This document shows, piece by piece, positions 2,800-57,525 of a DNA stretch of 64,000 nt. Under the pieces are notes generated by a model that was not told where the DNA came from, searched no databases, and was given only the letters and a program-made list of their open reading frames with translations. Numbering within the stretch: the stretch's first letter is position 1; every line of letters starts with the position of its first letter. The translations under genes and the position numbers were made by a program. This DNA is from Streptomyces nigrescens (lineage in GTDB: Bacteria; Actinomycetota; Actinomycetes; Streptomycetales; Streptomycetaceae), in contig AP026073.1 of NCBI GenBank assembly GCA_024349765.1, positions 4,526,001 to 4,590,000 of the forward strand. Reading direction: 5' to 3'.

Positions 2800-4335
2800 T
2801 CACGCCGGGCGGGCGGCGGCCGCGGCCTCGGCGGCGGCCGCGGCCTCGGCGGCGGCCGCGATGTTGCGGGCCATGCCGCCGAACACCGCGGCGTGGAAGG
2901 GGGCGACGCACCACCAGTAGGCATGGCCGGTCAGCCCGTGCGGATGGAACAGCGCCCGCTGGGCGTAGCGGGTGCGGCCCTCGGCGTCGCGGGCGACCGT
3001 CATCTCCAGCCAGGCGAGGCCGGGGAGCCGCATCTCGGCGCGCAGTCGCAGCAGCCGCCCGGGCTCGGCCGCCTCGACCCGCCAGAAGTCGAGCGAGTCG
3101 CCGACCCGGAGGCGGCCGGCGTCCCGTCTGCCGCGGCGCAGTCCCACACCGCCGGCGAGCCGGTCCAGCACGCCGCGCACCGCCCAGGCGAGCGGGAAGG
3201 AGTACCAGCCGTTTTCCCCGCCGATGCCCTCCACGACCTGCCAGAGCGTCTCCGGCGGGGCGTTCACGGTGACCTCCCGCCGGTCGGTGTAGAGGCTGCC
3301 GCCGGCCCAGTCGGGGTCGGTGGGCAGCGGGTCGCTGGGCGCGCCCGGTACGGCGGCGCCGGACCAGCGGGTGGTGACCTGGGCGTCCCGCACCCGGCGC
3401 AGCGCCAGGTCCACCGCGTCGTCGAAGGGCAGCGGGTGGCCCGGCGGGTCCGGGTCGGGGATGTAGCGGGCGAGGTCGTGTTCGTGGCAGACGACCTCGT
3501 GGCGCAGCGACTCGGCCAGGGGCCGGGCGATGCCCGGCGGGACGGGGGTGACCAGGCCGATCCAGAGGCTCGACAGGCGGGGGGTGAGGACCGGGACGGG
3601 CAGGATGAGCCGTTCCGGCAGGCCCGCCGCCCGCGCGTAGCGCTGCATCATGTCGCGGTAGGTGAGGATGTCCGGGCCGCCGATGTCGAAGGTCCGGCTG
3701 ACGTCGGCGGGGAGCCGGGCGCAGCCGACGAGGTACCGCAGCACATCGCGGACGGCGATGGGCTGGATGCGGGTGCGTACCCAGCTCGGCGTGATCATGA
3801 CCGGCAGCCGTTCGGTGAGGTAGCGCAGCATCTCGAAGGAGGCGGAACCGGAGCCGATGATGACCGCGGCGCGCAGCACGGCGGTGGGGACACCGGAGGC
3901 CAGCAGGATGTCGGCGACCTCGGACCGGGAGCGCAGGTGGGGTGAGAGGTCCCGTTCGGGGATGCCGCGCGGGGTGAGTCCGCCGAGGTAGACGATGCGG
4001 TGTACACCGGCGGCGCGGGCCTCCTCGGCGAAGATCCGCGCGGCCCGCCGGTCGGTCTCCTCGAACCGCGGGCCGGTGCCGAGGGCGTGCACGAGGTAGT
4101 AGGCGACGTCGACACCGGCCAGCGCGCGGCGCATCGAGCCGGCGTCGGTGACGTCGCCGCGGACGATCTCCGCCTGGCCGGCCCAGGGGTGGTCCCGCAG
4201 CTTCTCGGGGGTCCTGGCCAGCGCCCGGACGGCGTATCCGGCGTCGAGCAGCTCGGGCACCAGGCGGCCGCCGAGGTAGCCGGTGGCGCCGGTGACCAGG
4301 GCGCGCGGTGCTGCGGGGGCGCCGGTGTCGGCCAT
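2800..4335 (-). CDS. SDR-family NAD(P)-binding protein with C-terminal DUF2867 domain
   Basis: A 511-residue protein. The N-terminal ~290 residues form an NAD(P)-binding epimerase-like domain, with TGATGYLGGRLVPELLDAG at residues ~15-33, GDVTD near 61, and the YYLVHALGTG segment. The second half matches DUF2867, including WQVVEGIGGENGWYS and YWWCVAPFHAAVFGGMARN. This two-domain architecture is common in actinobacteria and is annotated as SDR oxidoreductase; its substrate is unknown. The C-terminus ends in a low-complexity tail of Ala-Glu-Ala repeats, encoded by a GGC/GCC-rich tract at about 2810-2865. Its Shine-Dalgarno sequence (AGGAGGT on the minus strand, 4342-4348) lies inside the edge of repeat element A, which fills the whole upstream gap, so any promoter must be in or beyond the element. 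Confidence 0.85.
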   Translation of the reverse strand: MADTGAPAAPRALVTGATGYLGGRLVPELLDAGYAVRALARTPEKLRDHPWAGQAEIVRGDVTDAGSMRRALAGVDVAYYLVHALGTGPRFEETDRRAARIFAEEARAAGVHRIVYLGGLTPRGIPERDLSPHLRSRSEVADILLASGVPTAVLRAAVIIGSGSASFEMLRYLTERLPVMITPSWVRTRIQPIAVRDVLRYLVGCARLPADVSRTFDIGGPDILTYRDMMQRYARAAGLPERLILPVPVLTPRLSSLWIGLVTPVPPGIARPLAESLRHEVVCHEHDLARYIPDPDPPGHPLPFDDAVDLALRRVRDAQVTTRWSGAAVPGAPSDPLPTDPDWAGGSLYTDRREVTVNAPPETLWQVVEGIGGENGWYSFPLAWAVRGVLDRLAGGVGLRRGRRDAGRLRVGDSLDFWRVEAAEPGRLLRLRAEMRLPGLAWLEMTVARDAEGRTRYAQRALFHPHGLTGHAYWWCVAPFHAAVFGGMARNIAAAAEAAAAAEAAAAARPA

Positions 4336-4340
4336 GGATG

Positions 4341-4823
4341 GACCTCCTCACGTACCAGTCTGTCCCGCCGCGGGGCGCTGCGCTTCGCGACGCCTCCCAC
4401 GTACCTGTCCGTCCCGCCTCGGGGCTCGCTCGCCGTTGTGCGCTTTGCGGCGCCCCGCACATACCCGTCTGTGCCGCCGTCGGGCCTGGTCTCCGTGGCG
4501 CCTGCGGCGGGCCGGGTGGTTGTCGGGTGCGGTTCTGGCCCTCCAGACTTCGTCCTCCGGTCCAGCCCCTCCCGTAGGAGGAAAGGGAACGGCCGGTGGG
4601 GGTGCACGGAGTCCTACGCACAGGCAGTGAACGGAACCACGCCCGCAGCCACGAAAACTCCCACCAACGGGAGGGGACAGACCGGAGGACGAAGTCTGCA
4701 GGGCTGTCACCGCACCCGACACACCAACGCCCGCCGCATGGCGGTACCTCCCACGCCCTTCAGGCAGTGGGGGAGCAACGGCGAGCAAGCCCCGCGGCGG
4801 GACGGACAAGTACGTGCGGGGCG
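4341..4823. repeat. Intergenic palindromic repeat element, copy A
   Basis: A ~480-bp non-coding element that fills the gap between the SDR gene and the lacI-type gene. The core is an inverted repeat of 51 bases (4525-4575 with 4667-4717, about 43 of 51 paired) containing the block GGAGGACGAAGTCTG. Outside the core lie tandem units of ~56-60 bp with CACGTACCTGTCCGTCCCGCC-like and GTTGTGCGCTTTGCGGCGCC-like blocks; inverted counterparts appear near 4780-4823. A 91-bp spacer contains CGGTGGGGGTGCACG. Copy B at 20228-20696 has the same order of parts; its right core matches the left core of copy A at 49 of 51 positions. No transposase, start-stop structure or codon bias supports a gene, so predicted reading frames through it are artefacts. 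Confidence 0.85.
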
Positions 4824-4827
4824 ACCC

Positions 4828-5919
4828 TCACTCGCAGGGCCCGGTGCTCTCCCGGGCCTCCAGGTGGGGCAGTTCGCCCTGGACGGTGCGCGGCGGGCCG
4901 CCGTCGAGGACGGTGAGGAGCTCGTGGGCGGCGAGTCGGCCGAAGCCGGGGGTGTCGCGGACCAGCGCGGTCAGGCGGGGGTGGGTGACCCGGCAGAGCG
5001 CGGAGTCGTCCCAGGCCACGATCGACAGCGCGGCGGGGACGGGGATGCCGCGCTCGGCGGCCACCGAGGCGCCGGCCACCGCCATCACGTCGTTGTCGTA
5101 GATGATCGCCGTGGGCGGCCGGGGGTCGTCCAGGATGCGGCGGGTGGCCTCGGCCCCCTCCGCGTCGGAGTAGTCGGTGGTCACCGAGCGGACCTGCCGC
5201 TCGTCGAGGCCGCGGAGCGCCGCCTCGGTGCGCAGCGAGCGGATCCGGCGGGCGGTGTGGGCGAGGCCGGGCAGGCCCGCGACGTGCACGATCCGGCGGT
5301 GGCCGAGGCCGTGGAGGTGGTCCAGGACGCGGGCCATGGCCTTGGCGTCGTCGGCCCAGACGGTGGGGAGCAGCGGTGGCGGCGCGGTGTCCGGCTCCTG
5401 GTCCGACGGTGCGGGGCCGGCCGGGCCGCCGATGGCGACGGCGGGCAGGCCGAGCGCGGCGAGGAGTTCCGGGCGGGGGTCGTCGGTGCGGGGGTCGACG
5501 ACGAGGACGCCGTCCACCCGGCGCTCGGCCCACCAGCGGCGGTAGAGCGCGCACTCGGTGTCGAGGTCCTCGACGACCTGGAAGAGCAGCGCGATCTTCC
5601 GGGCCGCGAGCACTTCCTGTATGCCGGAGACGAGTTGCAGGAAGAAGGATTCGACGCCCAGGGTGCGGGCGGGGCGGGCGAGGACGAGTCCGAGGGCGCC
5701 GGCGCGTTCGCCGGAGAGGGCGCGGGCGGCGGAGTTGGCCTGCCAGCCGAGTTCCTCGGCGACCCGGCGGACCCGGGCGCGGGTGTCGTCGGAGACGCCC
5801 GGCCGGTCGTTGAGCGCGAAGGAGACGGCGCTCTCCGAGACCCCGGCCCGGCGGGCGATGTCCTTGATCGTGGGCCGGCGCGCCGGCCTGTGGCGGGCGG
5901 CCCCACCGGGCGCTGTCAT
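4828..5919 (-). CDS. LacI-family transcriptional regulator of the glycan locus
   Basis: A 363-residue LacI/GalR repressor. The N-terminal helix-turn-helix and hinge read PTIKDIARRAGVSESAVSFA (residues ~16-35), then LNDRPGVSDDTRARV. The rest is the periplasmic-binding-protein-like effector domain, with VDGVLVVDPR, the HRRIVHVAG block and AIIYDNDVMAVAG. The start at 5919 is chosen because the DNA-binding domain follows at the normal distance; upstream codons to 6063 run through the operator region. It is divergent from the binding-protein gene, and two related 16-bp pseudo-palindromes lie in the shared gap. This is the standard layout for a repressor that controls its own gene and a sugar uptake operon and is released by a sugar. 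A mannose-containing glycan fragment is the likely inducer, by inference from the downstream enzymes. Confidence 0.92.
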   Translation of the reverse strand: MTAPGGAARHRPARRPTIKDIARRAGVSESAVSFALNDRPGVSDDTRARVRRVAEELGWQANSAARALSGERAGALGLVLARPARTLGVESFFLQLVSGIQEVLAARKIALLFQVVEDLDTECALYRRWWAERRVDGVLVVDPRTDDPRPELLAALGLPAVAIGGPAGPAPSDQEPDTAPPPLLPTVWADDAKAMARVLDHLHGLGHRRIVHVAGLPGLAHTARRIRSLRTEAALRGLDERQVRSVTTDYSDAEGAEATRRILDDPRPPTAIIYDNDVMAVAGASVAAERGIPVPAALSIVAWDDSALCRVTHPRLTALVRDTPGFGRLAAHELLTVLDGGPPRTVQGELPHLEARESTGPCE

Positions 5920-5946
5920 GGGCGGGCTCTCCTCGCGCTGAACCGC

Positions 5947-5962
5947 ATTAGTGCGCCTCAGT
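5947..5962. promoter_or_regulatory. Probable LacI-type operator, regulator side
   Basis: ATTAGTGCGCCTCAGT; its complement, ACTGAGGCGCACTAAT, agrees with the better operator at 6052-6067 at 12 of 16 positions, including the central GCGC. It lies 28 bp upstream of the regulator's start codon, consistent with autoregulation. Confidence 0.6.
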
Positions 5963-6042
5963 CTGATCAGGGCAGGGCGGTGTGTCAAACGTGTGCCAAT
6001 CCCCTCGCCGCGCCTCGCGAAGTCCCGTCCGCAGCACGGGTA

Positions 6043-6072
6043 TTGACACTCACTAAAGCGCATTAGTAGCGT
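6043..6072 (+). promoter_or_regulatory. Promoter of the glycan transport operon with overlapping LacI-type operator
   Basis: TTGACA (6043-6048) and TAGCGT (6067-6072) are 18 bp apart, matching a principal-sigma promoter. Between them lies ACTAAAGCGCATTAGT (6052-6067), palindromic at 14 of 16 positions with central GCGC, as expected for a LacI-family site. A repressor bound here would block RNA polymerase directly. The leader to the binding-protein start would be about 115 nt. Confidence 0.75.
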
Positions 6073-6192
6073 CTGCCGCGTCGTCGCCCGAGGTCCTGCG
6101 GAATACCCGCCGAAACGGCCTGGAACTCTCTCTCCCGGGGCCGGTGCGCGGCATTTTCCTGCGGTCTGGTCCGAGCAGAGGAGCCGCCAGCC

Positions 6193-7488
6193 ATGCGCAG
6201 AGTTACCGTTCCCCGCCGAGCCGGTGCCGCGGCCGTCGTCCTGGCCCTCTCGGCGCTCACCCTGACCGCGTGCGGATCCGGCGGCGGAGCCGGGGGCAGC
6301 GCCTCGGGGAAGGTCGAGGGCCAGGTCACCTTCCAGACCTGGAACCTCAAGGCGAATTTCAAGGATTACTTCGAGGGGCTCATCAAGGACTTCGAGCGGA
6401 AGTACCCGGACGCCCGGGTGAAGTGGATCGACCAGCCGGCCGAGGGATATCCGGAGAAACTCAGCGCGGACGCGGCCGGCGGCACCCTGCCGGACGTGGT
6501 GAACGTATCACCGGATCTCGCCTATCCGCTGGCGAAGGCCGGGCTCGCGCTCGACCTGGAAAAGGCAGCCGGGAAATACCGCGGAGAATATCTCGACGGG
6601 GCCTGGAAGAGCCATGAGATGCCGGGCCTGCCGGGTGTCTACGCCTTCCCCTGGTATCTGAACACCGGCCCGATGTTCTACAACAAGGAGCTCTTCAGGA
6701 AGGCCGGACTGGATCCGGACGCACCGCCGACCACCTATGACCAGCTCTTCACGGACGCGGTGGCGATGGCGAGGAAGAGCGGCCGGAGGATAGCGATGCT
6801 CGCCAGTACGCCGTCGATCGAGGACTTCGGCCGGTACGGCGTACGGCTGATGAACACCCGCGGCACCGAGTTCACCTTCAACGAGCCCAAGGGCGTCGAA
6901 CTGCTCGGCCACTACCGGGAGTTGTACGCGGCCGGGGCGCTGGACTCCCAGGCGCTGACCGCACAGGCCGAATCGGCGGGGCGGAAGTTCGAGCAGCAGT
7001 CCGTCGCCATGAACCCGGGCAGCGCGCTCGATCTGCAGAACTTCAAGAAGGACGCGCCGAGTCTCTACCGGCACATCGGTATCACCGACGCGGCCAACAA
7101 CACCGGTAAGGCCAATATGTACGTGCAGGGCCTGATGGTGAACGCGCAGAGCAAGGTGAAGCCGGCGGCGGTGGCCTTCGCGCACTTCGTCACCGACAAG
7201 AAGAACCAGATGGCGTTCGCCAAGGAGGTCACGATCTTCCCGAGCACCAAGGGCTCGCTGGACGATCCGTACTTCACCAAGGAGGACGGCACCGATGCGA
7301 CGCGGGTGCGGGTGGCCTCGGCCAAGTCGCTCACGACCGCGGTGAATTACACCCCGGTGCTGCTGAGTGACCAGATGAAGACCGTGCTGCGCAATGCGGT
7401 CGCCCGGGCCGTGCAGGGAAAGCAGTCGCCCAAGGCGGCGCTGGACGGTGCGGCCGCGGAGTGCAATCGCCTGCTGAAGACCGGCTGA
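6193..7488 (+). CDS. ABC transporter sugar-binding lipoprotein
   Basis: A 431-residue extracellular solute-binding protein (SBP family 1, MalE/UgpB type). The signal peptide is basic then hydrophobic and ends in the lipobox LTAC, with lipidated Cys27, followed by a Gly/Ser linker. The mature start VTFQTWNL and later segments PGVYAFPWYLNTGPMFYNK and FRKAGLDPDAPPTTYDQL are typical. It should capture an oligosaccharide and hand it to the two permeases downstream. The gene starts after GAGGAG 10 bp upstream. It is the first gene of a six-gene run that includes three glycosidases for N-glycans, so the ligand is most likely the high-mannose glycan released by the GH85 enzyme; this is inference from context. 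No ATPase gene lies in the operon, which fits the shared MsiK ATPase of Streptomyces. Confidence 0.9.
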   Translation: MRRVTVPRRAGAAAVVLALSALTLTACGSGGGAGGSASGKVEGQVTFQTWNLKANFKDYFEGLIKDFERKYPDARVKWIDQPAEGYPEKLSADAAGGTLPDVVNVSPDLAYPLAKAGLALDLEKAAGKYRGEYLDGAWKSHEMPGLPGVYAFPWYLNTGPMFYNKELFRKAGLDPDAPPTTYDQLFTDAVAMARKSGRRIAMLASTPSIEDFGRYGVRLMNTRGTEFTFNEPKGVELLGHYRELYAAGALDSQALTAQAESAGRKFEQQSVAMNPGSALDLQNFKKDAPSLYRHIGITDAANNTGKANMYVQGLMVNAQSKVKPAAVAFAHFVTDKKNQMAFAKEVTIFPSTKGSLDDPYFTKEDGTDATRVRVASAKSLTTAVNYTPVLLSDQMKTVLRNAVARAVQGKQSPKAALDGAAAECNRLLKTG

Positions 7489-7501
7489 GCCCGAGGCCGC
7501 C

Positions 7502-8371
7502 GTGACAAGGCATCATCCCGCGAGTCCCTGGCTGTTCCTCGCCCCCGGACTGCTGATCGTCCTCGCCTTCGGCCTGTATCCGTTCCTCAGCACGGTGACG
7601 CATTCCTTCACCGACGCCCGCACGCTCACCGAGGGGCAGTTCGTCGGGGCCGCGAATTACCGCGAGCTGATCCACGACGCGATGTTCTGGACCGGGCTGC
7701 GCAACAGCGTGCTCTACGTCCTCGGGGTCGTCCCGCTGCTGGTGGTCCTGCCGCTGCTGCTGGCGCTGCTGGTGCAGCGGCAGATTCCCGGGATCGCCTT
7801 CTTCCGGGCGGCGTTCTACACCCCGGTGGTCGCCTCCGTCGTGGTGGTCTCGCTGATCTGGGTGTGGCTGCTGGACGACCGAGGGCTGATCAACGCGCTG
7901 CTGGAGGGGCTGGGCTTCGGGACGGCCGGCTTCCTCAGCGACCCTTGGCTGCTGCTGCTCAGCGCCATGGCGGTCACCGTCTGGAAGGGCCTCGGCTACT
8001 ACATGATCATTTATCTGGCGGCGCTGGCCAACGTCCCCGGGGAACTGCACGAGGCCTGCGCGGTCGACGGGGCCGGCGCGGTGCGCCGCTTCCTGACCGT
8101 GACGGTGCCCGCGCTGCGGTCCACGATGGTGCTGGTGGCCGCGCTCTCGTCGGTCAGCGCGTTCAAGGTGTTCTCCGAGGTCTATCTGATGGCCGGCCCG
8201 ACCGGCGGGCCCGGCGGCGAGGACACCACGCTGGTGATGCTCGTGCAGCAGGCCGGCACCGGCCTGTCCGGCCGGGTCGGCTATGCCTCGGCACTGTCCG
8301 TGGTGGTCTTCGTGATCACCCTGGGGCTGATGCTGCTGGTGCTGCGCGCGAACCGCAGGGAGGAGGCATGA
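7502..8371 (+). CDS. ABC sugar transporter permease (MalF/UgpA type)
   Basis: A 289-residue integral membrane protein with six predicted helices, beginning with SPWLFLAPGLLIVLAFGLYP and ending in a hydrophobic helix before a short basic tail. The conserved cytoplasmic loop that docks with the ATPase is seen as ELHEACAVDGAGAVRRFLTV, an EAA-type motif. It starts with GTG at 7502, 13 bp after the binding-protein stop, and its stop overlaps the next permease start (ATGA), so translation is coupled. It forms half of the membrane channel with the next gene product. Confidence 0.92.
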   Translation: MTRHHPASPWLFLAPGLLIVLAFGLYPFLSTVTHSFTDARTLTEGQFVGAANYRELIHDAMFWTGLRNSVLYVLGVVPLLVVLPLLLALLVQRQIPGIAFFRAAFYTPVVASVVVVSLIWVWLLDDRGLINALLEGLGFGTAGFLSDPWLLLLSAMAVTVWKGLGYYMIIYLAALANVPGELHEACAVDGAGAVRRFLTVTVPALRSTMVLVAALSSVSAFKVFSEVYLMAGPTGGPGGEDTTLVMLVQQAGTGLSGRVGYASALSVVVFVITLGLMLLVLRANRREEA

Positions 8372-9231
8372 GCGCGCCCGCGCCGCGGTACGCGCGCGCC
8401 GGGCGGCGGCTGCCGCGGTGGCGGCTGGCGCTGCGTTACGCGCTGCTGCTCGCCGTACTGGCGCTGATGGTCGGGCCGTTCCTCTGGCAGCTGTCCACCT
8501 CCCTCAAGGGCCCCGGCGAGGACATCTACCGCTATCCGCCGAGCCTGGTCCCGCACCGGCTGACGCTGGCGAACTACGCGGACGTCGCCCGGATCATCCC
8601 GGTCTGGGACTTCGCCCTGAACTCCCTCAAGGTCGCCACCGCCAATGTGCTCACCAACTGCGCGGGCGCGGCGCTCGCCGGCTATGCGCTCGCCCGGCTG
8701 CGGTTCCGGGGCCGCCGGGCCGCGCTGGTGGTCTTCCTCATGGCGATGCTGGTCCCGGTCGAGAGCATCATGATCGCCCAGTTCGTGACGATGCGGGCGC
8801 TGCAGCTCAACAACACCCTGCTCGGGGTGGTGCTGCCCGGCTGCATCGGGGCGATGAACGTGCTGCTGATGCGCAATGCCTTCGCGGCGCTGCCGTACGA
8901 GGTCGAGGAGGCGGCGTTCGTCGACGGCGCCAACGCCTGGCAGCGGTTCGTGCGGATCGCGCTGCCGTCGGTGAGGGGCACCCTCGCGGTGGTGGCGATC
9001 TTCGCCTTCATGGGGGCCTGGGACGACTTCCTGTGGCCGCTGATCGTGCTGAGCGACCAGTCGAAGTTCACCCTGACGATCGGGCTGAACTTCCTGCACG
9101 GCACGTTCGCCGACAACCAGCGGCTGGTGGCGGCCGGCACCATCATCGCGGTCCTGCCGCTGATCGTGCTCTTCGCCTGTCTCCAGCGCTCCTTCTTCCG
9201 CGGCGTCGGCGAGGGCGCCGTCAAGGGCTGA
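8368..9231 (+). CDS. ABC sugar transporter permease (MalG/UgpE type)
   Basis: A 287-residue permease, the second half of the channel. After a basic N-terminus the first helix is LLLAVLALMVGPFLWQLST; the periplasmic segment and the remaining five helices follow. The EAA loop reads EEAAFVDGANAWQRFVRIAL near residues 180-200. The start ATG overlaps the TGA of the preceding permease by 4 bases and has AGGAGG just upstream. As in other Streptomyces sugar importers, no ATPase follows. Confidence 0.92.
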   Translation: MSAPAPRYARAGRRLPRWRLALRYALLLAVLALMVGPFLWQLSTSLKGPGEDIYRYPPSLVPHRLTLANYADVARIIPVWDFALNSLKVATANVLTNCAGAALAGYALARLRFRGRRAALVVFLMAMLVPVESIMIAQFVTMRALQLNNTLLGVVLPGCIGAMNVLLMRNAFAALPYEVEEAAFVDGANAWQRFVRIALPSVRGTLAVVAIFAFMGAWDDFLWPLIVLSDQSKFTLTIGLNFLHGTFADNQRLVAAGTIIAVLPLIVLFACLQRSFFRGVGEGAVKG

Positions 9232-9279
9232 ACCCGCCGGCCGAGCCGTATCCCCGCCGCCTTCGACCCCAGGAGTCCC

Positions 9280-10587
9280 ATGCGATTCGGCGTCAACTAC
9301 ACGCCCACCCAGGGCTGGTTCCACCACTGGCTGGACTTCGACCTCGACGCGGTACGCGCGGACCTCGACTCCGTCGCCGCGCTGGGCCTGGACCACATCC
9401 GGGTCTTCCCGCTCTGGCCGCTGTTCCAGCCGAACCGGGCGCTGATCCGGCCGCGCGCCGTGGAGCAGCTGGTGCAGCTCGCGGACGCGGCGGCCGAGCG
9501 CGGGCTCGACATCGCCGTCGACGGGCTGCAGGGGCATCTGTCGAGCTTCGACTTCCTGCCCGCCTGGACGCGGACCTGGCACCGCCGCAACCTCTTCACC
9601 GACCCGGAGGTGCTGGCGGGCCAGGAGGAGTACCTGCGCACGCTGGCGGCCGCGCTCGCGGACCGCCCGGCCTTCCTCGGGATGACGCTCGGCAACGAGA
9701 TCAACCAGTTCTCCGACGGCCCGCATCCGGACCCGGACCACATCACCGGCGCGGAGGCCACGGCCTGGCTGGAGCGGATGCTGGCGGCCTGCGAGCGCGG
9801 CGCGCCGGGCCGGATGCATCTGCACGCCGCGTACGACGCCGCCTGGTACCGCGACGGCCATCCGTTCACCCCGGCGCAGGCGGCCCGGCTGGGTGCCGTG
9901 ACGGCCGTGCACTCCTGGGTGTTCAACGGCACCGCCCAGCGCCACGGGCCGGCGGGCACCGCCACCGAGCAGCACGCCGCCTATCTCGTCGAGCTGTCCA
10001 AGGCGTGGGCGACGGACCCGCACCGGCCGGTGTGGCTCCAGGAGGTCGGTGCGCCCGCGCCGCACATCCCCGCGGAGCGGGCGGCGCACTTCACCGGGGC
10101 GACCGTCGCGGCCGTCCTGGACTGCCCGGACCTGTGGGGCGTCACGTGGTGGTGTTCGCACGACGTGTCCCGGTCGCTCGCGGACTTCCCGGAGCTGGAG
10201 TACGGGCTCGGGCTGCTCCGCACCGACCGCACGGTCAAGCCGGCCGGGCGGGCGCTGGCGGCGCTGGCCGCCGAGTGGCGCGGTCGGGAGCACCGGCCGC
10301 CGGTGCGGAACTGCGCGCTGGTCGTGGACGTGGGCGGGGCCGGCGCCGCGCCGCACCGGTCGGTGTGCGCACCCGGCGGGCCGGTCTTCGAGGCCTGGGC
10401 CGAGCTGGCCACCCAGGGCGCCCGGCCGACGCTCGTACTGGCCGAACTCGCCGGGAACCGGGACCATTTGGCGTCCCGTGGCATCACCGAGGTCGTTTCA
10501 CCCGACGAGGTGCGTGCGTCCGGCGGCTCCGCCCGCGCCGCGCGTCGCCGGCCGCCGTCCGTTCCCCACCGGAGGAGCACCTCATGA
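9280..10587 (+). CDS. GH5 (subfamily 18-like) beta-mannosidase for Man-beta-1,4-GlcNAc
   Basis: A 435-residue glycoside hydrolase of clan A, family 5. It starts MRFGVNYTPTQGWFHHWLDF with no signal peptide, so it should be cytosolic. The acid/base is Glu140 in GMTLGNEINQF and the nucleophile Glu255 in WLQEVGAP; HSWVF and VTWWCSHD are further active-site blocks. The overall pattern resembles the GH5_18 beta-mannosidases of bifidobacterial N-glycan loci, which split the Man-beta-1,4-GlcNAc left after alpha-mannose removal. That is a good fit here because a GH85 endoglycosidase (leaving one GlcNAc on the glycan) and a GH38 alpha-mannosidase follow. Subfamily assignment is from memory of sequence features, not from a search. 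The last ~75 residues are poorly conserved and Arg-rich. The stop overlaps the next start (ATGA). Confidence 0.8.
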   Translation: MRFGVNYTPTQGWFHHWLDFDLDAVRADLDSVAALGLDHIRVFPLWPLFQPNRALIRPRAVEQLVQLADAAAERGLDIAVDGLQGHLSSFDFLPAWTRTWHRRNLFTDPEVLAGQEEYLRTLAAALADRPAFLGMTLGNEINQFSDGPHPDPDHITGAEATAWLERMLAACERGAPGRMHLHAAYDAAWYRDGHPFTPAQAARLGAVTAVHSWVFNGTAQRHGPAGTATEQHAAYLVELSKAWATDPHRPVWLQEVGAPAPHIPAERAAHFTGATVAAVLDCPDLWGVTWWCSHDVSRSLADFPELEYGLGLLRTDRTVKPAGRALAALAAEWRGREHRPPVRNCALVVDVGGAGAAPHRSVCAPGGPVFEAWAELATQGARPTLVLAELAGNRDHLASRGITEVVSPDEVRASGGSARAARRRPPSVPHRRSTS

Positions 10588-12668
10588 CGCACCGCCCGCT
10601 GCCCGTCCCCCGCCGTCGTGTGCTGCTGGCCGGGGCGGGCGCCGCGGTCGCCCTGTTCGGCCCGCCCTTCGCGAGCGGTGCGGGGGCGGCCGGCCGCCCC
10701 CGCGCGGCGGACCCGCTCCAGCCGTACGCGTCGTACTGGTTCCCCGACTCGTTGCCGGAGGGCACGCCGGACGACGGTGTGGTGTGGCGCAGCCTCGCGG
10801 CGTGGACGCCCGGGTCCGACCGGGACCTGCCGTTCAACACGGCGACGGTGCCGCTCGCCGAGCGGTTCACGCCGGTGCCGGCGAACACCTCGGCCCGCGC
10901 CGGGCAGGCCCGGATCAGCGCCCTGGCGGCCTTCGACCACACCGCGGGCAATCCCTCGCAGGGCTCGGCGACCGCGGACCACTACGCGCCGACGCACTGG
11001 GCGTACCTCGACGAGCTGGTCTTCTGGGGCGGCTCGTCCGGCGAGGGCCTGATCCTCGCGCCGAACGCCCCGGTGGTGGACGCCGCGCACCGCAACGGCG
11101 TGCCCGTCCTGGGCACCGTCTTCCTGCCGCCGGCCGCCTACGGCGGGCAGCTGCGCTGGACCCGTGACCTGGTGCGGAAGGACGCCGCGGGGCGCTTCCC
11201 GCTCGCCGCGAAGCTGGCTCGGGTGGCCGCGGCGTACGGCTTCGACGGCTGGTTCGTCAACGCGGAGACCGGTGGCGGGGACGCCGCGCTCGCCGACGAC
11301 ATGCGAGGTTTCCTGCGGGCGCTGCGCACCGCGGGCGCCCGGCACGGACTGCGCATCACGTGGTACGACGCGATGAACCGGACCGGGCAGGTCGGCTGGC
11401 AGGGTGCGCTGAACGACCTCAACCGGACGTTCTTCCAGGACACCGCCGGGCCGGTCGCCGACTCGCTGTTCGTCGACTTCCGCTGGACCGCCCGGTCGCT
11501 CGTGGACTCGGGCCGTCTCGCCGGTCAACTGAGCCGCAGCCGCTACGAGTTGTGGGCCGGGGTCGACGTCGAGTCGGCCGGCTGGGACACCCGCACGGAC
11601 TGGGACGCGATCGTCCCGGCCGGGCGCGACCACGTCGTCTCGTACGGCTTCTACCGTCCGGAGTGGACGCTGACGCATCTGCCCGAGGGGCGTACGCCCG
11701 GTGACTTCCATGCCGCGGACGACCGGTTCTGGTCGGGCGAGGGACTGGATCCGACCGTGCCGGGCGGTGCGGGGGACGGCTGGCGGGCGCCGGCCGCGGT
11801 GGTCGCGGACCGGTCGGTGCTGACCGCGCTGCCGTTCGCCACCACCTTCAACACCGGGCACGGGCTGCGCTGGTACGACGGCGGGCGCGCGGTCTCGGAC
11901 GCGCCCTGGAACCACCTCGGGTTGCAGGACGTGCTGCCGCCGCGGCGCTGGGCGGTACGCACCGCGGGCGCCCGCCCGGAGGTCTCGCTGGACTTCGCCG
12001 CCGCCTGGCGCGGCGGCAGCAGTCTGCTGGTGCGCGGTGCGCTCGACGCCCCGGCGACGCTGGAGCTGTTCCCGGCGCGGCTGCCGGCCGGTGCGGAGAC
12101 GGTGCTCGGCCTCACCCATCGCCTCGATCCGTCGTCAGGGCCGGTGACCGTCGAGGTGGCGGTGGCCCTGCGGGACGCGCCGGCGCCGGGCGAACCCGCT
12201 CCGTACGCCTTCCTGCCGGCCGGCACGCTGGAGCCGGGCGGCGGCTGGCGCACCGACACCGTGCGGCTCGGCCCGCTGGTTCCGGGCACGGTCCGTGCGC
12301 TGGGGGTGCGGCTGACCGGCCGCGGCGGCGGTGCGGTGGCCTGGCGGCTGGGGGCGCTGACGATCCGCGACCGCGCCGGGTCGCCGGCCGCGCCCGCCGG
12401 GCTGCGGGTCACCGACCGCGCCACCACGGACGGCGCGCTCGCCCTGCGGCTGCGCTGGGAGCGGGCCGCCGGCCCGGTGCGCCACTACGAGCTGTACCGC
12501 CAACTTCCGGACGGCGCCCGGCGGTTCCTCGGCGGTACGTGCGGTACGGCGTACTACGTCCGCGGGCTGGAGCGGGCCGCGGGCGAGGCGGCCGCCCGGC
12601 TGGAGGTGCGCGCGGTGCACGAACTGTTCACGGTCTCGGCGCCGGCCCGCACCGACGTCCCCTGGTGA
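10584..12668 (+). CDS. Secreted GH85 endo-beta-N-acetylglucosaminidase
   Basis: A 694-residue enzyme that should cut between the two GlcNAc residues of the N-glycan core, freeing the glycan from protein. The N-terminus PRRRVLLAGAGAAVALFG is a twin-arginine-like signal with an AxA-type region near residue 35. The GH85 barrel begins PYASYWFPDSLPEG; the catalytic Asn226 and Glu228 sit in GFDGWFVNAETGG, and the WYDAM strand follows at ~275. The second half (after ~420) holds beta-sandwich, carbohydrate-binding-like modules ending in a fibronectin-III-like segment (LRWERAAGPVRHYELYRQL). It overlaps the GH5 gene by 4 bases, so both are made together although one product is exported and the other is not. 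This is the only exported hydrolase of the operon and therefore probably the first step. Confidence 0.9.
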   Translation: MTHRPLPVPRRRVLLAGAGAAVALFGPPFASGAGAAGRPRAADPLQPYASYWFPDSLPEGTPDDGVVWRSLAAWTPGSDRDLPFNTATVPLAERFTPVPANTSARAGQARISALAAFDHTAGNPSQGSATADHYAPTHWAYLDELVFWGGSSGEGLILAPNAPVVDAAHRNGVPVLGTVFLPPAAYGGQLRWTRDLVRKDAAGRFPLAAKLARVAAAYGFDGWFVNAETGGGDAALADDMRGFLRALRTAGARHGLRITWYDAMNRTGQVGWQGALNDLNRTFFQDTAGPVADSLFVDFRWTARSLVDSGRLAGQLSRSRYELWAGVDVESAGWDTRTDWDAIVPAGRDHVVSYGFYRPEWTLTHLPEGRTPGDFHAADDRFWSGEGLDPTVPGGAGDGWRAPAAVVADRSVLTALPFATTFNTGHGLRWYDGGRAVSDAPWNHLGLQDVLPPRRWAVRTAGARPEVSLDFAAAWRGGSSLLVRGALDAPATLELFPARLPAGAETVLGLTHRLDPSSGPVTVEVAVALRDAPAPGEPAPYAFLPAGTLEPGGGWRTDTVRLGPLVPGTVRALGVRLTGRGGGAVAWRLGALTIRDRAGSPAAPAGLRVTDRATTDGALALRLRWERAAGPVRHYELYRQLPDGARRFLGGTCGTAYYVRGLERAAGEAAARLEVRAVHELFTVSAPARTDVPW

Positions 12669-12728
12669 CCGCCCGCCCTTCCGCCTCTCCTTCTCGCCTC
12701 TCCTTCTCGACGCTACGGAGCCCCTCCC

Positions 12729-15700
12729 ATGCATGACGATCGCGTACTGGTCGAAGCCCGGCTCAAGCGGGTCCTGGACGAGCGCATCCGGCCGGCGCTC
12801 TATCCGGAGTCGGTCCCCTTGGAGGTCGCGGCCTGGGTCGCGCCCGGTGAGCCGGTGGGCGTGGCGGAGGGGCTGGCCGCCGAGCACACCCCGGTGGCGG
12901 TGGGGGACGCCTGGGGCGCGCCGTGGGGCACGACCTGGTTCCGGGTCCGCGGGCAGGTGCCGGAACGGTGGGCCGGGCGGACCGTGGAGGCGGTGCTGGA
13001 CCTGGGCTTCGACGAGCGGATGCCGGGGTTCCAGTGCGAGGCGCTGGTCTACCGGCCCGACGGCAGCCCGGTCAAGGCGCTCAACCCGCGCAACCAGTGG
13101 GTGCGGGTGGGGGCGCCGGTGCGCGGCGGGGAGCGCGTCGAATGGCATCTGGAGGCCGCGTCCAACCCGGTGATCCTGGACGTGCACCCGTTCCTGCCCA
13201 CCCGGTTGGGCGACCGGGATACCGCGGGCAGTGCGCCGCGGTACCGGCTGGCGCGGATGGATCTGGCGGTGTTCGACACCGAGGTGTGGGAGCTCGTCCA
13301 GGACCTGGAGGTGCTGGACGAGCTGATGGCGGAGCTCCCGGTGGACGGTCCGCGGCGCTGGGAGGTGCTGCGGGCGGTCGGCCGGGCGCTGGACGCGGTG
13401 GACCTGCAGCGCGTCAACGCGACGGCCGGGGCGGCCCGTTCGGAGCTGCGGGAGGTGCTGGCGGCACCCGCGGGGGCCTCGGCGCACCGGATCAGCGCGG
13501 TGGGGCACGCCCACATCGACTCGGCGTGGCTGTGGCCGCTGCGCGAGACGGTCCGGAAGGTGGCGCGGACCACGTCGAACATGACGGCGCTGCTGGAGGA
13601 CGAGCCGGAGTTCGTCTACGCCATGTCGCAGGCGCAGCAGTACGCGTGGATCAAGGAGCACCGGCCGGAGGTCTACGCCCGGGTCAAGAACGCGGTCGCG
13701 GAGGGCCGGTTCGTCCCGGCGGGCGGGATGTGGGTCGAGTCGGACACCAACATGCCGGGGTCGGAGGCGATGGCCCGGCAGTTCGTACACGGCAAGCGGT
13801 TCTTCCTGGAGGAGTTCGGGGTCGAGAACGAGGAGGCGTGGCTGCCGGACACCTTCGGGTTCGCCGCGGGGCTGCCGCAGATCATCCGGGCGGCGGGCGC
13901 GAAATGGCTGCTCACCCAGAAGATCTCCTGGAGCCAGGTGAACTCCTTCCCGCACCACACCTTCCGCTGGGAGGGCATCGACGGCACCCGGATCTTCACC
14001 CACTTCCCGCCGGTGGACACCTACAACTGTCAGCTTTCGGGCGGTGAACTCGCCCATGCGGCACGGAACTTCAAGGACAAGGGGGTGGCCCGGCACTCGC
14101 TGGCGCCGACCGGCTGGGGCGACGGGGGCGGCGGCACCACCCGCGAGATGGTCGCCAGGGCCCGGCGGCTGCGCGATCTGGACGGGTCGCCGACGGTGGT
14201 GTGGGAGAAGCCCGCGGACTTCTTCGCGCGGGCGGAGGCGGAGTATCCGCAGGCGCCGGTGTGGGTGGGCGAGCTGTATCTGGAGCTGCACCGCGGGACC
14301 CTGACCAGCCAGGCGAAGACCAAGCGCGGCAACCGGCGCAGCGAGCAGCTGCTGCGGGAGGCGGAGCTCTGGTCGGCGACCGCCGCCGTGACCCGCGGAC
14401 ACCCGTATCCGTACGAGGAGTTGGACCGCCTCTGGAAGACGGTGCTGCTCCACCAGTTCCACGACATCCTGCCCGGTTCGTCGATCGCCTGGGTGCACCG
14501 GGAGGCGGCGGCGACGTACGCGGCGGTCGCCACCGAGCTGGAGGGGCTGATCGCGGGGGCGCTGGCGGCACTGGCCGGCGACGGGGACACCGCGTTGGTG
14601 GTGAACTCCGCGCCGCACGCCCGGAGCGGGGTGGCGGCCGGTGCGCTGGCGCCGCCGTCGGCCGAGGGCCCACAGGTGTCCGTCACGCCCCGCGACGACG
14701 GTGGTTTCACGCTCACCAACGGTCTGCTGCGGATCGGGATCGACGGCCGCGGGCTGGTGGTCTCCGCGTACGACCTGGCGGCCGGCCGCGAGACGGTGGC
14801 TCCCGGGGCGGCGGCGAACCTGCTGCAGGTCCACCCGGACTTCCCGAACATGTGGGACGCCTGGGACGTGGACGCGTTCTACCGCAATGTGGTCACCGAT
14901 CTGACGGACGCGGACGAGGTGGTCCTCGGTGCGGCGGGCCCGGACGCCGCGACGGTACGGGTGTCCCGTACGTTCGGGGACTCGCGGGTGGAGCAGTCGC
15001 TGACGCTGGCGCGCGGGCAGCGGCGGCTGGACGTCGACACCGAGGTCGACTGGCACGAGACGGAGAAGTTCCTCAAGGCCGCGTTCCCGCTGGACGTGCA
15101 CGCGGAGCGGTACGCCGCGGAGACCCAGTTCGGGCATCTGTACCGGCCCACGCACACCAACACCAGCTGGGAGGCGGCCAAGTTCGAGGCGTGTGCGCAC
15201 CGGTTCGTGCACGTCGAGGAGCCGGGCTGGGGCGTCGCGCTGGTCAATGACGCGGTCTACGGCCATGACGTGACCCGTACCGTCCGGGACGACGGCGACC
15301 GCGGCACCACCACGACCGTGCGGCTGTCGCTGCTGCGCGCCCCGCGCTTCCCGGACCCGGAGACCGACCAGGGCCGACACCGTTTCCGCTACGCGCTGGT
15401 GCCCGGCGCCGGGATCGCCGACGCGGTGCGCGAGGGCCACCGGATCAATCTGCCGGAACGCCGGATCACCGGTGCGGGTGCGGTGCCGCCGCTGGTCGCG
15501 GTCGACAACGACGCGACGGTGGTGACCGCGGTGAAGCTCGCCGACGACGGGAGCGGCGAGGTGGTCGTCCGCCTCCACGAGGCCCACGGCGGGCGCGCCG
15601 CCACGGTGCTCACCACCGGGTTCGAGCTGGCCGGCGCGGTCGCCACCGATCTGCTGGAACGTCCGTGGGAGGACGGTCCGGCGCTCGACCGGCGGGGGAA

Positions 15701-15773
15701 CTCCGTGCGGATGCGGCTGCGCCCGTTCCAGATCGTGACGCTGCGACTGCGCCGGGCGGGCGGCGGCCGGTAG
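12729..15773 (+). CDS. GH38 alpha-mannosidase
   Basis: A 1014-residue family 38 alpha-mannosidase. It has the N-terminal beta domain seen in the class with yeast Ams1 and bacterial enzymes, then the catalytic domain with AVGHAHIDSAWLWPLRET (zinc ligands His260 and Asp264 by position), MWVESDTNMPGSEA, and the nucleophile Asp374 in AWLPDTFGF. HQFHDILPGSSI at ~578 is another metal-site block. No signal peptide is present, so it acts in the cytosol on imported oligosaccharide, removing alpha-linked mannoses one by one. It ends the operon, 60 bp after the GH85 gene. Only one alpha-mannosidase is encoded here, so either it is broad or helper enzymes lie elsewhere. Confidence 0.92.
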   Translation: MHDDRVLVEARLKRVLDERIRPALYPESVPLEVAAWVAPGEPVGVAEGLAAEHTPVAVGDAWGAPWGTTWFRVRGQVPERWAGRTVEAVLDLGFDERMPGFQCEALVYRPDGSPVKALNPRNQWVRVGAPVRGGERVEWHLEAASNPVILDVHPFLPTRLGDRDTAGSAPRYRLARMDLAVFDTEVWELVQDLEVLDELMAELPVDGPRRWEVLRAVGRALDAVDLQRVNATAGAARSELREVLAAPAGASAHRISAVGHAHIDSAWLWPLRETVRKVARTTSNMTALLEDEPEFVYAMSQAQQYAWIKEHRPEVYARVKNAVAEGRFVPAGGMWVESDTNMPGSEAMARQFVHGKRFFLEEFGVENEEAWLPDTFGFAAGLPQIIRAAGAKWLLTQKISWSQVNSFPHHTFRWEGIDGTRIFTHFPPVDTYNCQLSGGELAHAARNFKDKGVARHSLAPTGWGDGGGGTTREMVARARRLRDLDGSPTVVWEKPADFFARAEAEYPQAPVWVGELYLELHRGTLTSQAKTKRGNRRSEQLLREAELWSATAAVTRGHPYPYEELDRLWKTVLLHQFHDILPGSSIAWVHREAAATYAAVATELEGLIAGALAALAGDGDTALVVNSAPHARSGVAAGALAPPSAEGPQVSVTPRDDGGFTLTNGLLRIGIDGRGLVVSAYDLAAGRETVAPGAAANLLQVHPDFPNMWDAWDVDAFYRNVVTDLTDADEVVLGAAGPDAATVRVSRTFGDSRVEQSLTLARGQRRLDVDTEVDWHETEKFLKAAFPLDVHAERYAAETQFGHLYRPTHTNTSWEAAKFEACAHRFVHVEEPGWGVALVNDAVYGHDVTRTVRDDGDRGTTTTVRLSLLRAPRFPDPETDQGRHRFRYALVPGAGIADAVREGHRINLPERRITGAGAVPPLVAVDNDATVVTAVKLADDGSGEVVVRLHEAHGGRAATVLTTGFELAGAVATDLLERPWEDGPALDRRGNSVRMRLRPFQIVTLRLRRAGGGR

Positions 15774-15797
15774 CCGGTCGTCGCGGCGGGGAACGGA

Positions 15798-16070
15798 TCA
15801 GGGCGTGTCTCCGCGATCAGGCCGCAGCAGGGAGCGGGCTCGGCCGGCCCGGGCCCCGCGTCCGGGGTTGCGGCCGTGGTCCGCCGCCGGTGCGTGCGCG
15901 GCGCCGCGCCCCGGGTCCCGGCCGGGGTCCAGGTCCAGCATGTCCATCAGCAACGACAGGTCCGCCGCGTCCCGCGCCCGGCCGGCCAGCGCCTTGCGGG
16001 CGAGCCGGCGTTCCTCGTCACCCGGTGCGGCGCGGGCGGGATCCTCGGCACTGCGGTGTTCTTCGCTCAC
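15798..16070 (-). CDS. Small conserved protein of unknown function
   Basis: A 90-residue protein beginning with GTG at 16070 (first residues VSEEHRSAEDPARAAP). The central helix is charged and leucine-rich: ARKALAGRARDAADLSLLMD, then MLDLDPGRDPG. The tail is Gly/Pro/Arg-rich. I do not recognise a named domain, but a helix of this kind (RKALxGxAxDAADLxxLLxMLDL) recurs in small Streptomyces proteins. It converges with the mannosidase gene (24 bp between stops) and is divergent from the esterase gene. The longer form starting at 16355 would run back through the esterase promoter region and is not favoured. Confidence 0.55.
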   Translation of the reverse strand: MSEEHRSAEDPARAAPGDEERRLARKALAGRARDAADLSLLMDMLDLDPGRDPGRGAAHAPAADHGRNPGRGARAGRARSLLRPDRGDTP

Positions 16071-16253
16071 CGCTGCATTCTCGGCCGGACCGCGGTGCCG
16101 TGCCCGTCGAGCGCTCCCGGGGCGCCTGCTGCGGAACCGGCCGGGGCGCGTGGGGCCGTTCGGGTGAACGGGGTCGCGCCGGAGCCCCGCGCCGCATCGT
16201 CCGGCCGCCCCGGCGGCGAGGGAACCCACACCACCCCTTTTCCCTCTATATGA

Positions 16254-16273
16254 GCACGTGCAAGGGCACGTGC
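16254..16273. promoter_or_regulatory. Paired GCACGTGC palindromes upstream of the esterase gene
   Basis: Two copies of the 8-bp palindrome GCACGTGC start at 16254 and 16266, 12 bp apart, and sit 28 bp before the TTG start. The AT-rich TCCCTCTATATGA just before them may hold a -10 element. This could be an operator; no regulator is identified. Confidence 0.4.
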
Positions 16274-16300
16274 CGTTGATCCACCGCCCCGGAGTCCCCG

Positions 16301-17326
16301 TTGAAACACCCCTACGCCGTCGCGCTCGCGGCCGCCCTCGTCGCTTCCTGCGCACTGCTCACCGGCTGCTCGGAGACCGGGCAGCCGGTCGACTTCAACG
16401 CCGGCGGCAAACCCGACGGGGCCGCGCCCGTCAAGCCCGTGGACGCGGACACCCGTATGCCGACGGGCCCGAAGAGCGACTTCCGGGTCACCCGGACGCT
16501 GGACGACGGCACGCACATCGCCCGGACCACGCTGAAGGGCCGCAAGTCCGGGGTCACCGGCAGCGTCTGGGTCTGGGCGCCGAAGGAGTACCAGGACCCG
16601 AAGTACGCCAAGAGCGGATTCCCGGTGCTGATCGCCCTGCCGGGCGGTCTGGGCAGCCCGCAGGACGCCGACGGGGTCACCAATTACTGGGTCGGCGGCG
16701 ACATCAAGCTCCAGGAGAACCTCACCCGGTGGACCGCGGAGGGCAAGAGCCTGCCGTTCATCGTGGTGATGCCGATGCTCAACCCGGACACCCGGTACCA
16801 CGACGCCAGCGACATACCCGGCCAGCAGAAGATGGGCACCTGGCTGACGGAGGACGTGGTGGACCTGGCGAAGGCCAACTTCCGTACCTACCGGTCCCGC
16901 GACGGCTGGGCGTTCATGGGCTCGTCCTCGGGCGGCTTCGCCGGGCTGAAGTCCGTGCTGAAGCACCCGGACAAGTTCAAGGCGGCGATCGCCAGCGGGC
17001 CGGACATCGTGCCGGACTCCCCGCTGTGGGCCGGGCACCAGGCGGAGAAGGACGCCAACAACCCGGAAAAGCTCGCCCGGCGGCTGCTCCAGAAGGGCGG
17101 CCCGGACGTCTACCTCGCCTTCCAGGCGGGCACCCGGGAGTCCCCAGCCGTCACCCGGTCCATCGAGAAGTTCCGCAACGCCTACGGCAAGGGGCCGATC
17201 CACACCTCGCTGCAGCTCATACCCGGTGGGCGGCACAACGCCTGGGACTACCAGAAGGGCATGGACGACGGTTCCCTGAAGTTCATCAGCGACCACCTGA
17301 AGGCCCCGGTGCCGAGCCGTTCCTGA
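16301..17326 (+). CDS. Secreted esterase lipoprotein (alpha/beta hydrolase, esterase D type)
   Basis: A 341-residue lipoprotein. The signal peptide ends in the lipobox LTGC (Cys23). The rest is an alpha/beta-hydrolase of the putative esterase (PF00756-like) kind: SVWVWAPKEY, then FPVLIALPGGLG, FIVVMPML, the nucleophile elbow FMGSSSGGFAG with Ser209, and a late GGRHNAWDY that carries the catalytic His. Related proteins include mycolyltransferase-like and enterobactin-esterase-like enzymes; the substrate is unknown. It starts with TTG at 16301 after GGAG; this start puts the basic residue and hydrophobic core in the right place. It stands alone, with the small antitoxin-like gene 78 bp downstream. 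Confidence 0.85.
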   Translation: MKHPYAVALAAALVASCALLTGCSETGQPVDFNAGGKPDGAAPVKPVDADTRMPTGPKSDFRVTRTLDDGTHIARTTLKGRKSGVTGSVWVWAPKEYQDPKYAKSGFPVLIALPGGLGSPQDADGVTNYWVGGDIKLQENLTRWTAEGKSLPFIVVMPMLNPDTRYHDASDIPGQQKMGTWLTEDVVDLAKANFRTYRSRDGWAFMGSSSGGFAGLKSVLKHPDKFKAAIASGPDIVPDSPLWAGHQAEKDANNPEKLARRLLQKGGPDVYLAFQAGTRESPAVTRSIEKFRNAYGKGPIHTSLQLIPGGRHNAWDYQKGMDDGSLKFISDHLKAPVPSRS

Positions 17327-49485: not shown

Positions 49486-51009
49486 ATGGCCCGTTACGCC
49501 AGCCCGGGTTCCGCCGATGCCGTGATGAGCTATCTGCCGCGTTACGACCACTGGATCGGCGGCGAGTTCGTGGCGCCCGCATCGGGCCGGTACTTCGAGA
49601 ATCCGACGCCGGTCAACGGAGCGCCGTTCACGGAAATCGCCCGCGGCACCGCCGAGGACGTCGAGCGGGCACTGGACGCCGCGCACGCGGCCGCGCCCGG
49701 CTGGGCCCGTACCGCGGCCGCCGAACGCGCCGCCGTCCTCCTCCGGATCGCCGACCGGATGGAGGCGAACCTCGAAGCCCTCGCGGTCGCCGAGAGCTGG
49801 GAGAACGGCAAGCCGGTACGCGAGTCCCTGGCGGCCGACATCCCCCTCGCGGTCGACCACTTCCGCTACTTCGCGGGGGCGCTCCGGGCCCAGGAGGGCT
49901 CGCTGTCGGAGATCGACGAGGACACCGTCGCCTACCACTTCCACGAGCCGCTCGGCGTGGTCGCCCAGATCATCCCGTGGAACTTCCCGATCCTGATGGC
50001 CGCCTGGAAGCTCGCCCCGGCGCTGGCGGCCGGCAACGCGGTCGTCCTGAAACCGGCCGAACAGACCCCCGCCTCCCTGCACTTCTGGATGAGCCTGGTC
50101 GCGGACCTGCTGCCGCCCGGCGTGGTCAACATCGTCAACGGCTTCGGCGTCGAGGCCGGCAAGCCGCTGGCGTCCAGCCCCCGGGTCGCCAAGATCGCCT
50201 TCACCGGTGAGACCACGACCGGCCGGCTGATCATGCAGTACGCCTCCGAGAACCTGCGCCCGGTGACGCTCGAACTGGGCGGCAAGAGCCCCAACCTCTT
50301 CTTCGACGACGTCTCCGCCGCCGACGACGACTTCCTCGACAAGGCGCTGGAGGGCTTCACCATGTTCGCCCTCAACCAGGGCGAGGTGTGCACCTGCCCG
50401 TCCCGCGCCCTGATCCAGCGCGGCCACTACGACGACTTCCTGGCGGCCGGCGTGGCCCGTACGGAGAAGATCGTCCAGGGCCACCCGCTGGACACCGACA
50501 CCATGATCGGCGCCCAGGCGTCCAACGACCAGCTCGAAAAGATCCTCTCCTACCTGGACATCGGTCAGAAGGAGGGCGCCCGCATCCTGACCGGTGGCAC
50601 CCGCGCCGAACTCGGCGGCGAACTGGAGGGCGGCTACTACGTCCGCCCCACCGTCTTCGAGGGCAACAACGACATGCGGGTCTTCCAGGAGGAGATCTTC
50701 GGCCCGGTGGTCGCGGTGGCCCCCTTCGCCGACTTCGACGACGCCATCGGCATCGCCAACGACACCCTCTACGGCCTCGGCGCCGGCGTCTGGACCCGCG
50801 ACGGCTCCACCGCCTACCGCGCCGGCCGCGCCATCCAGGCCGGCCGCGTCTGGACCAACTGCTACCACGCCTACCCGGCCCACGCCGCCTTCGGTGGCTA
50901 CAAACAGTCCGGCATCGGCCGCGAAACCCACAAGATGATGCTGGACCACTACCAGCAGACGAAGAACTTGCTGGTGTCGTACTCGCCGAAGAAGCTGGGG
51001 TTCTTCTAA
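49486..51009 (+). CDS. Aldehyde dehydrogenase (acetaldehyde dehydrogenase ExaC/AcoD type)
   Basis: A 507-residue NAD-dependent aldehyde dehydrogenase. It has the Rossmann [20 protein letters not shown], the general base Glu263 in [11 protein letters not shown] and the nucleophile Cys302 in [15 protein letters not shown], with VCTCPSR typical of the ExaC/AcoD acetaldehyde group. [20 protein letters not shown] and [20 protein letters not shown] complete the family. It oxidises acetaldehyde or related short aldehydes to acids. The GAF regulator gene precedes it in the same direction, and a terminator follows. Confidence 0.93.
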
Positions 51010-51021
51010 ACGCATGACGAC

Positions 51022-51057
51022 GGGCGCCTGGCGTGGGCTTTCGCCCGTCAGGCGCCC
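51022..51057 (+). terminator. Terminator after the aldehyde dehydrogenase gene
   Basis: GGGCGCCTG (51022-51030) pairs with CAGGCGCCC (51049-51057); inner bases extend the stem. It begins 12 bp after the stop codon. Confidence 0.75.
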
Positions 51058-57512: not shown

Positions 57513-57525
57513 GCCGCAGCCGGTC
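57492..57525. terminator. Terminator overlapping the STAND gene stop codon
   Basis: A 13-bp perfect stem (57492-57504 with 57513-57525) has an 8-nt loop that contains most of the stop codon region. It can stop transcription from both converging genes. Confidence 0.75.

Follow-up and report, generated by a model that had tools for sequence, protein, structure and literature searches.

We found that positions 4828 to 15773 of the window, the whole 64,000-nucleotide stretch of Streptomyces nigrescens DNA analysed here, very probably hold a LacI-repressed N-glycan utilisation operon. Judged from sequence comparisons, its products would release glycans with a GH85 enzyme, import them through an ABC transporter and digest them with a GH38 and then a GH5_18 enzyme.

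A seven-gene locus probably serving N-glycan utilisation

The first-pass annotation had described a block of seven genes, and our gene calls and Pfam searches agreed: genes for LacI, a lipoprotein, two permeases, GH5, GH85 and GH38 are present within 4828-15773. A predicted exported endoglycosidase, a binding protein, permeases, predicted cytosolic GH38 and GH5_18 enzymes and a regulator are thereby found in one cluster, which argues for an N-glycan utilisation locus. The features are as follows.

4828..5919, minus strand: divergent gene for a LacI-family repressor (Pfam LacI and Peripla_BP_3; gene call; match in 67/80 loci, the best 80 of at least 564)
5938..5951, no strand: operator 2, weaker, CTGAACCGCATTAG (1 mismatch to CTAAACCGCATTAG; 115 bp from the main operator)
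6053..6066, no strand: main operator CTAAAGCGCATTAG, an imperfect palindrome (best-conserved 14-mer of the divergent region)
6193..7488, plus strand: solute-binding lipoprotein (Pfam SBP_bac_1; lipobox-like LTAC)
7502..8371, plus strand: ABC permease 1, UgpA/MalF-like (Pfam BPD_transp_1; NCBIfam matches below cut-offs)
8368..9231, plus strand: ABC permease 2, UgpE/MalG-like (Pfam BPD_transp_1, E=1.5e-18; match in 61/80 loci, the best 80 of at least 564)
9280..10587, plus strand: probable GH5_18 beta-mannosidase, signal peptide not seen (314/411 identity to ScGH5_18, 7lr7; Glu140 and Glu255)
10584..12668, plus strand: probable GH85 endo-beta-N-acetylglucosaminidase with a Tat-like signal (Pfam Glyco_hydro_85, 3.1e-78, and GH85_C; best PDB matches 3fha, 3fhq and 2vtf)
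12729..15773, plus strand: probable GH38 alpha-mannosidase related to 7ufr-7ufu and Ams1, signal peptide not seen (Pfam GH38 N, middle and C domains; PDB 7ufs 3.5e-248, Ams1 fusion 7vqo 4.3e-167)

Overlaps of 4 bases between the two permease genes and between the GH5 and GH85 genes suggest an operon. Within 4300-16400, no sigma-70 consensus promoter was detected, and the single terminator-like site (4658-4673, minus strand) was not above shuffle level. For the LacI gene, the probable start is 5919 (MTAPGG...) and not 6063: an ORF extended that far would have its first codon next to the main operator and would run over most of this site. Elsewhere in the window, positions 50001-60000 have a GC content of 0.66-0.69, below that of most of the window, and there are few gene calls at 51-61 kb.

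The three glycoside hydrolases have intact catalytic residues

Alignments to PDB sequences and homologues confirmed the earlier claim that the catalytic residues of GH5, GH85 and GH38 are all intact. The GH5 protein matched nothing in Pfam at E<=0.001. Its best PDB sequence match was crystallised ScGH5_18 (7lr7), with 314 of 411 aligned residues identical (76%; E=1.8e-215), and the further matches were, in order, 9y4v, BlGH5_18, BlMan5B and 6gvb. We take Sc to stand for Streptomyces cattleya, and the BlGH5_18 and ScGH5_18 entries presumably come from Higgins et al. 2021. Glu140 and Glu255 were invariant across 8 aligned sequences, and Ala is found in 7lr8 at the position of Glu140. The high identity to ScGH5_18, together with both catalytic Glu residues, points to GH5_18 membership. 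The first-pass annotation had made its proposal depend on a place for this protein in subfamily 18, which holds by similarity to ScGH5_18.

The best PDB matches of the GH38 protein were 7ufr-7ufu, followed by Ams1. We take 7ufr-7ufu to be B. longum GH38 and, together with 6moy, to belong to the B. longum high-mannose N-glycan system. Asp374 and a GHAHIDSAW motif are kept, and 7ufu has Ala aligned with Asp374. With N, middle and C domains and the Asp nucleophile, the protein falls into GH38.

The GH85 protein scored 263.8 bits against a Pfam cut-off of 22.2 bits and also matched the GH85_C domain. Its PDB matches were led by 3fha (2.1e-110), with 3fhq and 2vtf reaching 6.1e-110, all three presumably EndoA of Glutamicibacter protophormiae; EndoD (2w91) followed at 3e-73. 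By hand count, Asn226 and Glu228 correspond to residues 171 and 173 of 3fha; both were invariant in 6 sequences, and this catalytic NxE within a GH85 domain indicates GH85 membership. Tyr205, Trp216 and Tyr299 of 3fha are also kept in the hand-counted alignment, which has Arg in place of 3fha Trp244 both here and in four closer Streptomyces homologues. Because of the change of Trp244 to Arg, the specificity of 3fha may not transfer to the enzyme described here. A profile search found GH85 once in the S. nigrescens genome.

The locus might instead serve mainly for another mannose polymer, such as a beta-mannan or a matrix polymer, with the GH5 protein acting as a general beta-mannosidase. A passage of PMC12691653 places GimA and GimB in one clade with BlGH5_18 and BlMan5B and reports their action on the sporangium matrix of Actinoplanes missouriensis. 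However, the GH5 protein shares 76% identity with ScGH5_18 and lies in an operon with GH85. According to a part of PMC10154615, in which EndoA and EndoD are given as the GH85 structures available at the time, the characterised members of this family act on N-glycans and nothing else. We therefore regard such a polymer as a highly improbable main substrate and favour N-glycans.

Localisation signals also differ among the hydrolases. As had been claimed, the GH85 protein alone of the three has an export signal: its N-terminus is hydrophobic after RRR, with a 15-residue Kyte-Doolittle maximum in the first 50 residues of 1.92, versus 1.11 for GH5 and 0.94 for GH38. Among called ORFs of related loci, 15-residue values of at least 1.6 occurred in 39/48 GH85, 0/79 GH5 and 0/61 GH38 proteins. 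The further claim of Tat-type export fared less clearly. RRR and the hydrophobic stretch fit it, but the loose twin-arginine motif is unspecific, being present in 38/48 GH85 proteins yet also in 31/57 binding lipoproteins of the related loci. Since the motif is so common in the lipoproteins, Tat export of GH85 is likely, short of proven.

The locus type is common in Streptomyces

Among 61 genomes (S. nigrescens and 60 relatives), a GH5 match at E<=0.001 was present in 39, of which 34 were strong (E below 1e-130) and 5 weak, and GH85 was present in 19, one match being partial. Stretches of 15-18 kb around GH5 were taken from 20 of the 61; G012, which has a strong GH5 match, had no other locus gene within the 17 kb taken. 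As a separate observation, G036 has, between GH5_18 and GH38 (L036:9888-10229), a match to GH85 residues 587-694 only, which looks like the remnant of a lost GH85 gene; the one GH85-domain match of that genome is elsewhere.

A scan of named genomes gave at least 564 encoding stretches, and the best 80 were analysed, a choice that favours close relatives. By title, these best 80 of at least 564 came from Streptomyces (74), Kitasatospora (3), Actinacidiphila, Wenjunlia and Streptantibioticus; the closest named relative among the matches listed was Streptomyces sp. NRRL S-337 (94% for GH5). In this sample, LacI was matched in 67 loci, the binding protein in 57, the permeases in 60 and 61, GH85 in 47 and GH38 in 62; contig ends cut some of the 80 loci, so that absences are upper limits. 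The full set of seven, in which GH85 separates GH5 from GH38, was found in 24/80 loci, LacI lying ~5 kb off in three of these. Another 21/80 had the transporter, GH5 and GH38 with GH85 absent from the stretch, 11/80 had GH5 and GH85 without transporter or GH38, 10/80 had a divergent GH85 on the opposite strand, upstream, and the remaining 14/80 had other or truncated architectures. The 21 loci without GH85 imply that such loci can do without this enzyme. When 1137 ORFs from the 80 loci were screened with a strict GH18 motif, no GH18 substitute was detected.

Neighbouring genes were also of interest. A ROK kinase adjoined 15/80 and a mannose-6-phosphate isomerase 4/80 of the best 80 of at least 564 loci. 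Two of these kinases and one isomerase were checked against Pfam; in NCBIfam the isomerase cleared the cut-off for manA, and the single kinase scanned cleared none. Such neighbours fit mannose as a product. We conclude that loci with the gene content predicted for N-glycan use are common in Streptomyces.

A conserved operator-like site may link the blocks of a proposed regulon

In the region between LacI and the lipoprotein gene, positions 6052-6067 read ACTAAAGCGCATTAGT, and 5937-5952 form a weaker copy; the window has 2 matches at <=3 mismatches versus 0.06 expected. The operator consensus is CTAAA(G/C)CGCATTAG. LacI-divergent regions could be cut from 66 of the best 80 of at least 564 loci, and 54/66 of these regions contained CTAAAGCGCATTAG with <=1 mismatch, while the best match in 330 base-shuffled copies had at least 3. 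A palindromic site conserved to this extent suggests LacI-type local regulation, and LacI would be the protein that binds these sites. As a control for shared ancestry, other 14-mers of the same window region reached at most 25/66 (median 1), and those around 6171, which are among this maximum, include a likely ribosome-binding stretch. Paired sites (<=2 mismatches) were present in 44/63 regions under 1500 bases, the window counted, with a spacing of 23-24 bp in 30/44 and of 115 bp in the window; 1/315 shuffled regions had even one site. In 8/10 loci with an upstream GH85, CTAGACCGGTTTAG replaces the usual operator.

Across the 61 genomes, CTAAWGCGCWTTAG was present in 17, compared to 1/61 for the reversed control. 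A strong GH5 match accompanies it in 15 of these genomes, and G005 and G027 lack any; the exact site was absent from 19/34 genomes with a strong GH5 match (e.g. G001, G012, G025, G035). Within the S. nigrescens genome, the exact 14-mer CTAAAGCGCATTAG occurs at this locus only. A search at <=1 mismatch to the G/C form yields four sites, two of them outside the locus, versus 1 and 0 for the reversed control; at <=2 mismatches to the G form, there is no excess (4 and 4 versus 4 and 5).

The 11 loci with GH5 and GH85 only offered a further view of the operator, and we searched the genomes of five of them for a separate GH38 gene and operators. GH38 was found elsewhere in the genome in 5/5, and in 4/5 an operator pair (1 mismatch each) lay 3.3-3.5 kb upstream of it; G065 had no operator pair at GH38, and the reversed control gave one match each in 2/5. 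In S. lavendulae (L134), genes for the binding protein and both permeases, 38-55% identical to those of the window, lie between the operator pair and GH38. The operator common to the separated blocks in 4/5 genomes supports a tie of the transporter and GH38 to GH5 and GH85. We lean, with some reserve, towards a dedicated Streptomyces N-glycan regulon with a single LacI clade and paired CTAAA(G/C)CGCATTAG sites as its hallmarks. It would stay intact across split blocks, and its endoglycosidase would be exchangeable (a window-type GH85, a divergent one or none nearby) on a core of import, GH38 and GH5_18 that is fixed.

A few sites lie apart from these genes. Each of the five split genomes has a further 1-mismatch site, which in the three inspected precedes a small secreted-protein-like gene that looks unrelated. 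Of the two additional sites of the S. nigrescens genome, C1:7535312 resembles the site in three split-locus genomes (L132, L133, L138), and C2:997938 (L136) lies between minus-strand genes with no evident glycan link. The operator-like sequences in question are CCAAACCGCATTAG at L132:5612, L133:5681 and L138:5674 and CGAAACCGCATTAG at L135:5313 in the S. nigrescens genome; they lie upstream of the small secreted-protein-like gene (141-252 aa), which adjoins a gene of ~1090-1360 codons with a shared LLVN(A/C)NGTVVNAN near its start. The extra sites of the S. nigrescens genome do not bear on the pathway, and the regulon as proposed allows for other targets.

Transport and functions encoded elsewhere

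The locus had also been called self-contained. The core enzymes and the permeases do lie together, but none of the seven genes encodes an ATPase, a sugar kinase or an isomerase, and two GH92 genes and a second GH38 gene lie elsewhere. Permease 2 (8368-9231) is nearest to UgpE and MalG in NCBIfam, under both cut-offs. The binding protein carries LTAC, which is lipobox-like, and its solved relatives in a PDB sequence search point to no particular ligand. The S. nigrescens genome has three OB_MalK matches, one of which (L043, 400 aa) is a MalK/UgpC-like ATPase that we take to be of the shared MsiK type. The second GH38 gene (L137:4846-7971) encodes a protein 60% identical to the GH38 of the locus, and no operator match was found within 12 kb around it.

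Gene calls for both GH92 genes start with export-signal-like sequences. At L139:409-3725 and 4238-7654, one of the two GH92 genes has divergent lipoprotein and permease genes as neighbours, and the two permeases are ~30% identical to those of the locus. Secreted GH92 enzymes could trim glycans first, as with EndoD of S. pneumoniae, so that the locus would serve mainly for short or trimmed N-glycans (Man3-5GlcNAc, or those released by others) and not for intact high-mannose glycans; EndoD requires prior trimming, according to a section of PMC10154615. However, the GH85 protein is closer to 3fha (2.1e-110) than to EndoD 2w91 (3e-73), and the GH92 genes lie apart from the locus, with no nearby operator at <=2 mismatches to the G form or <=1 to the G/C form. 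Use mainly of trimmed glycans is thus a possibility that we consider rather unlikely.

A proposed pathway

The enzymatic route and the import step that had been proposed, starting from high-mannose glycans as the presumed substrate type, are the likeliest reading of the findings. From the gene content, catalytic residues, localisation signals and conserved operator-like sites and co-occurrence, which are direct observations, we infer the substrate, transport, ATPase partner, inducer and order of steps. GH85, probably exported by Tat, would cut the chitobiose core of N-glycans, whether high-mannose or trimmed, outside the cell, on glycoproteins of fungal, plant or animal origin, so that one GlcNAc stays attached to the protein. 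Man(n)GlcNAc1 would then be taken up through the binding lipoprotein and both permeases, driven by a shared MsiK-like ATPase encoded elsewhere. In the cytosol, the Ams1-like GH38 would take off alpha-mannoses and GH5_18 would split Man-beta-1,4-GlcNAc, with mannose and GlcNAc as end products. An intermediate or product of the pathway would free LacI from the paired CTAAA(G/C)CGCATTAG operators.

Comparison with known systems

This type of locus is already known, and what is added here is the operator CTAAA(G/C)CGCATTAG. In an open library, a search for a LacI regulon of N-glycan use in Streptomyces gave one bifidobacterial review and nothing on such a regulon, a negative that carries little weight for journals behind subscription; a search for an EndoA gene cluster gave no paper. 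The locus opens no new mechanism. It does lend support to the idea that soil streptomycetes commonly possess a pathway described mainly in bacteria of gut and skin, and it offers a concrete candidate regulator and operator with which N-glycan use in soil could be reported, induced or traced.

The B. longum system has several GH38 enzymes, whereas here there is one in the locus and one elsewhere. In both, as far as a passage of PMC10154615 describes B. longum, there would be no processing before release (by GH18/GH85 in B. longum), and the exo-mannosidases are intracellular and act after import. The first-pass annotation had stressed a soil actinomycete as the setting. The locus is indeed in a soil Streptomyces, but the setting is not novel: ScGH5_18 was already in the PDB, and Higgins et al. 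2021 (ACS Chem Biol 16:701), as cited in PMC12258148, PMC9061262 and PMC12691653, present in their title the N-glycan pathway core genes as common to gut and soil actinobacteria. The PDB structures named BlGH5_18 and ScGH5_18 are relatives of the GH5 protein of the window, which is 76% identical to ScGH5_18, and a passage of PMC12691653, citing Higgins et al. 2021 and a second paper, states that BlGH5_18 and BlMan5B act on Man-beta-1,4-GlcNAc.

The locus of Cutibacterium acnes likewise has adjacent GH38 and GH5_18 genes without signal peptides, but it contains GH20 and a GH18, whereas the seven genes of the window include GH85 and no GH20 or GH18 (PMC6160142, in part); the same part counts 51 Streptomyces sequences then in GH5_18. 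The EndoD system of S. pneumoniae, as outlined in sections of PMC5215778 and PMC10154615, also pairs an extracellular GH85 with subsequent import, yet there GH92 trims first, outside the cell. S. pneumoniae also has a GH125 (PMC6160142, in part), in contrast to the S. nigrescens genome, in which a Pfam search gave no GH125 match.
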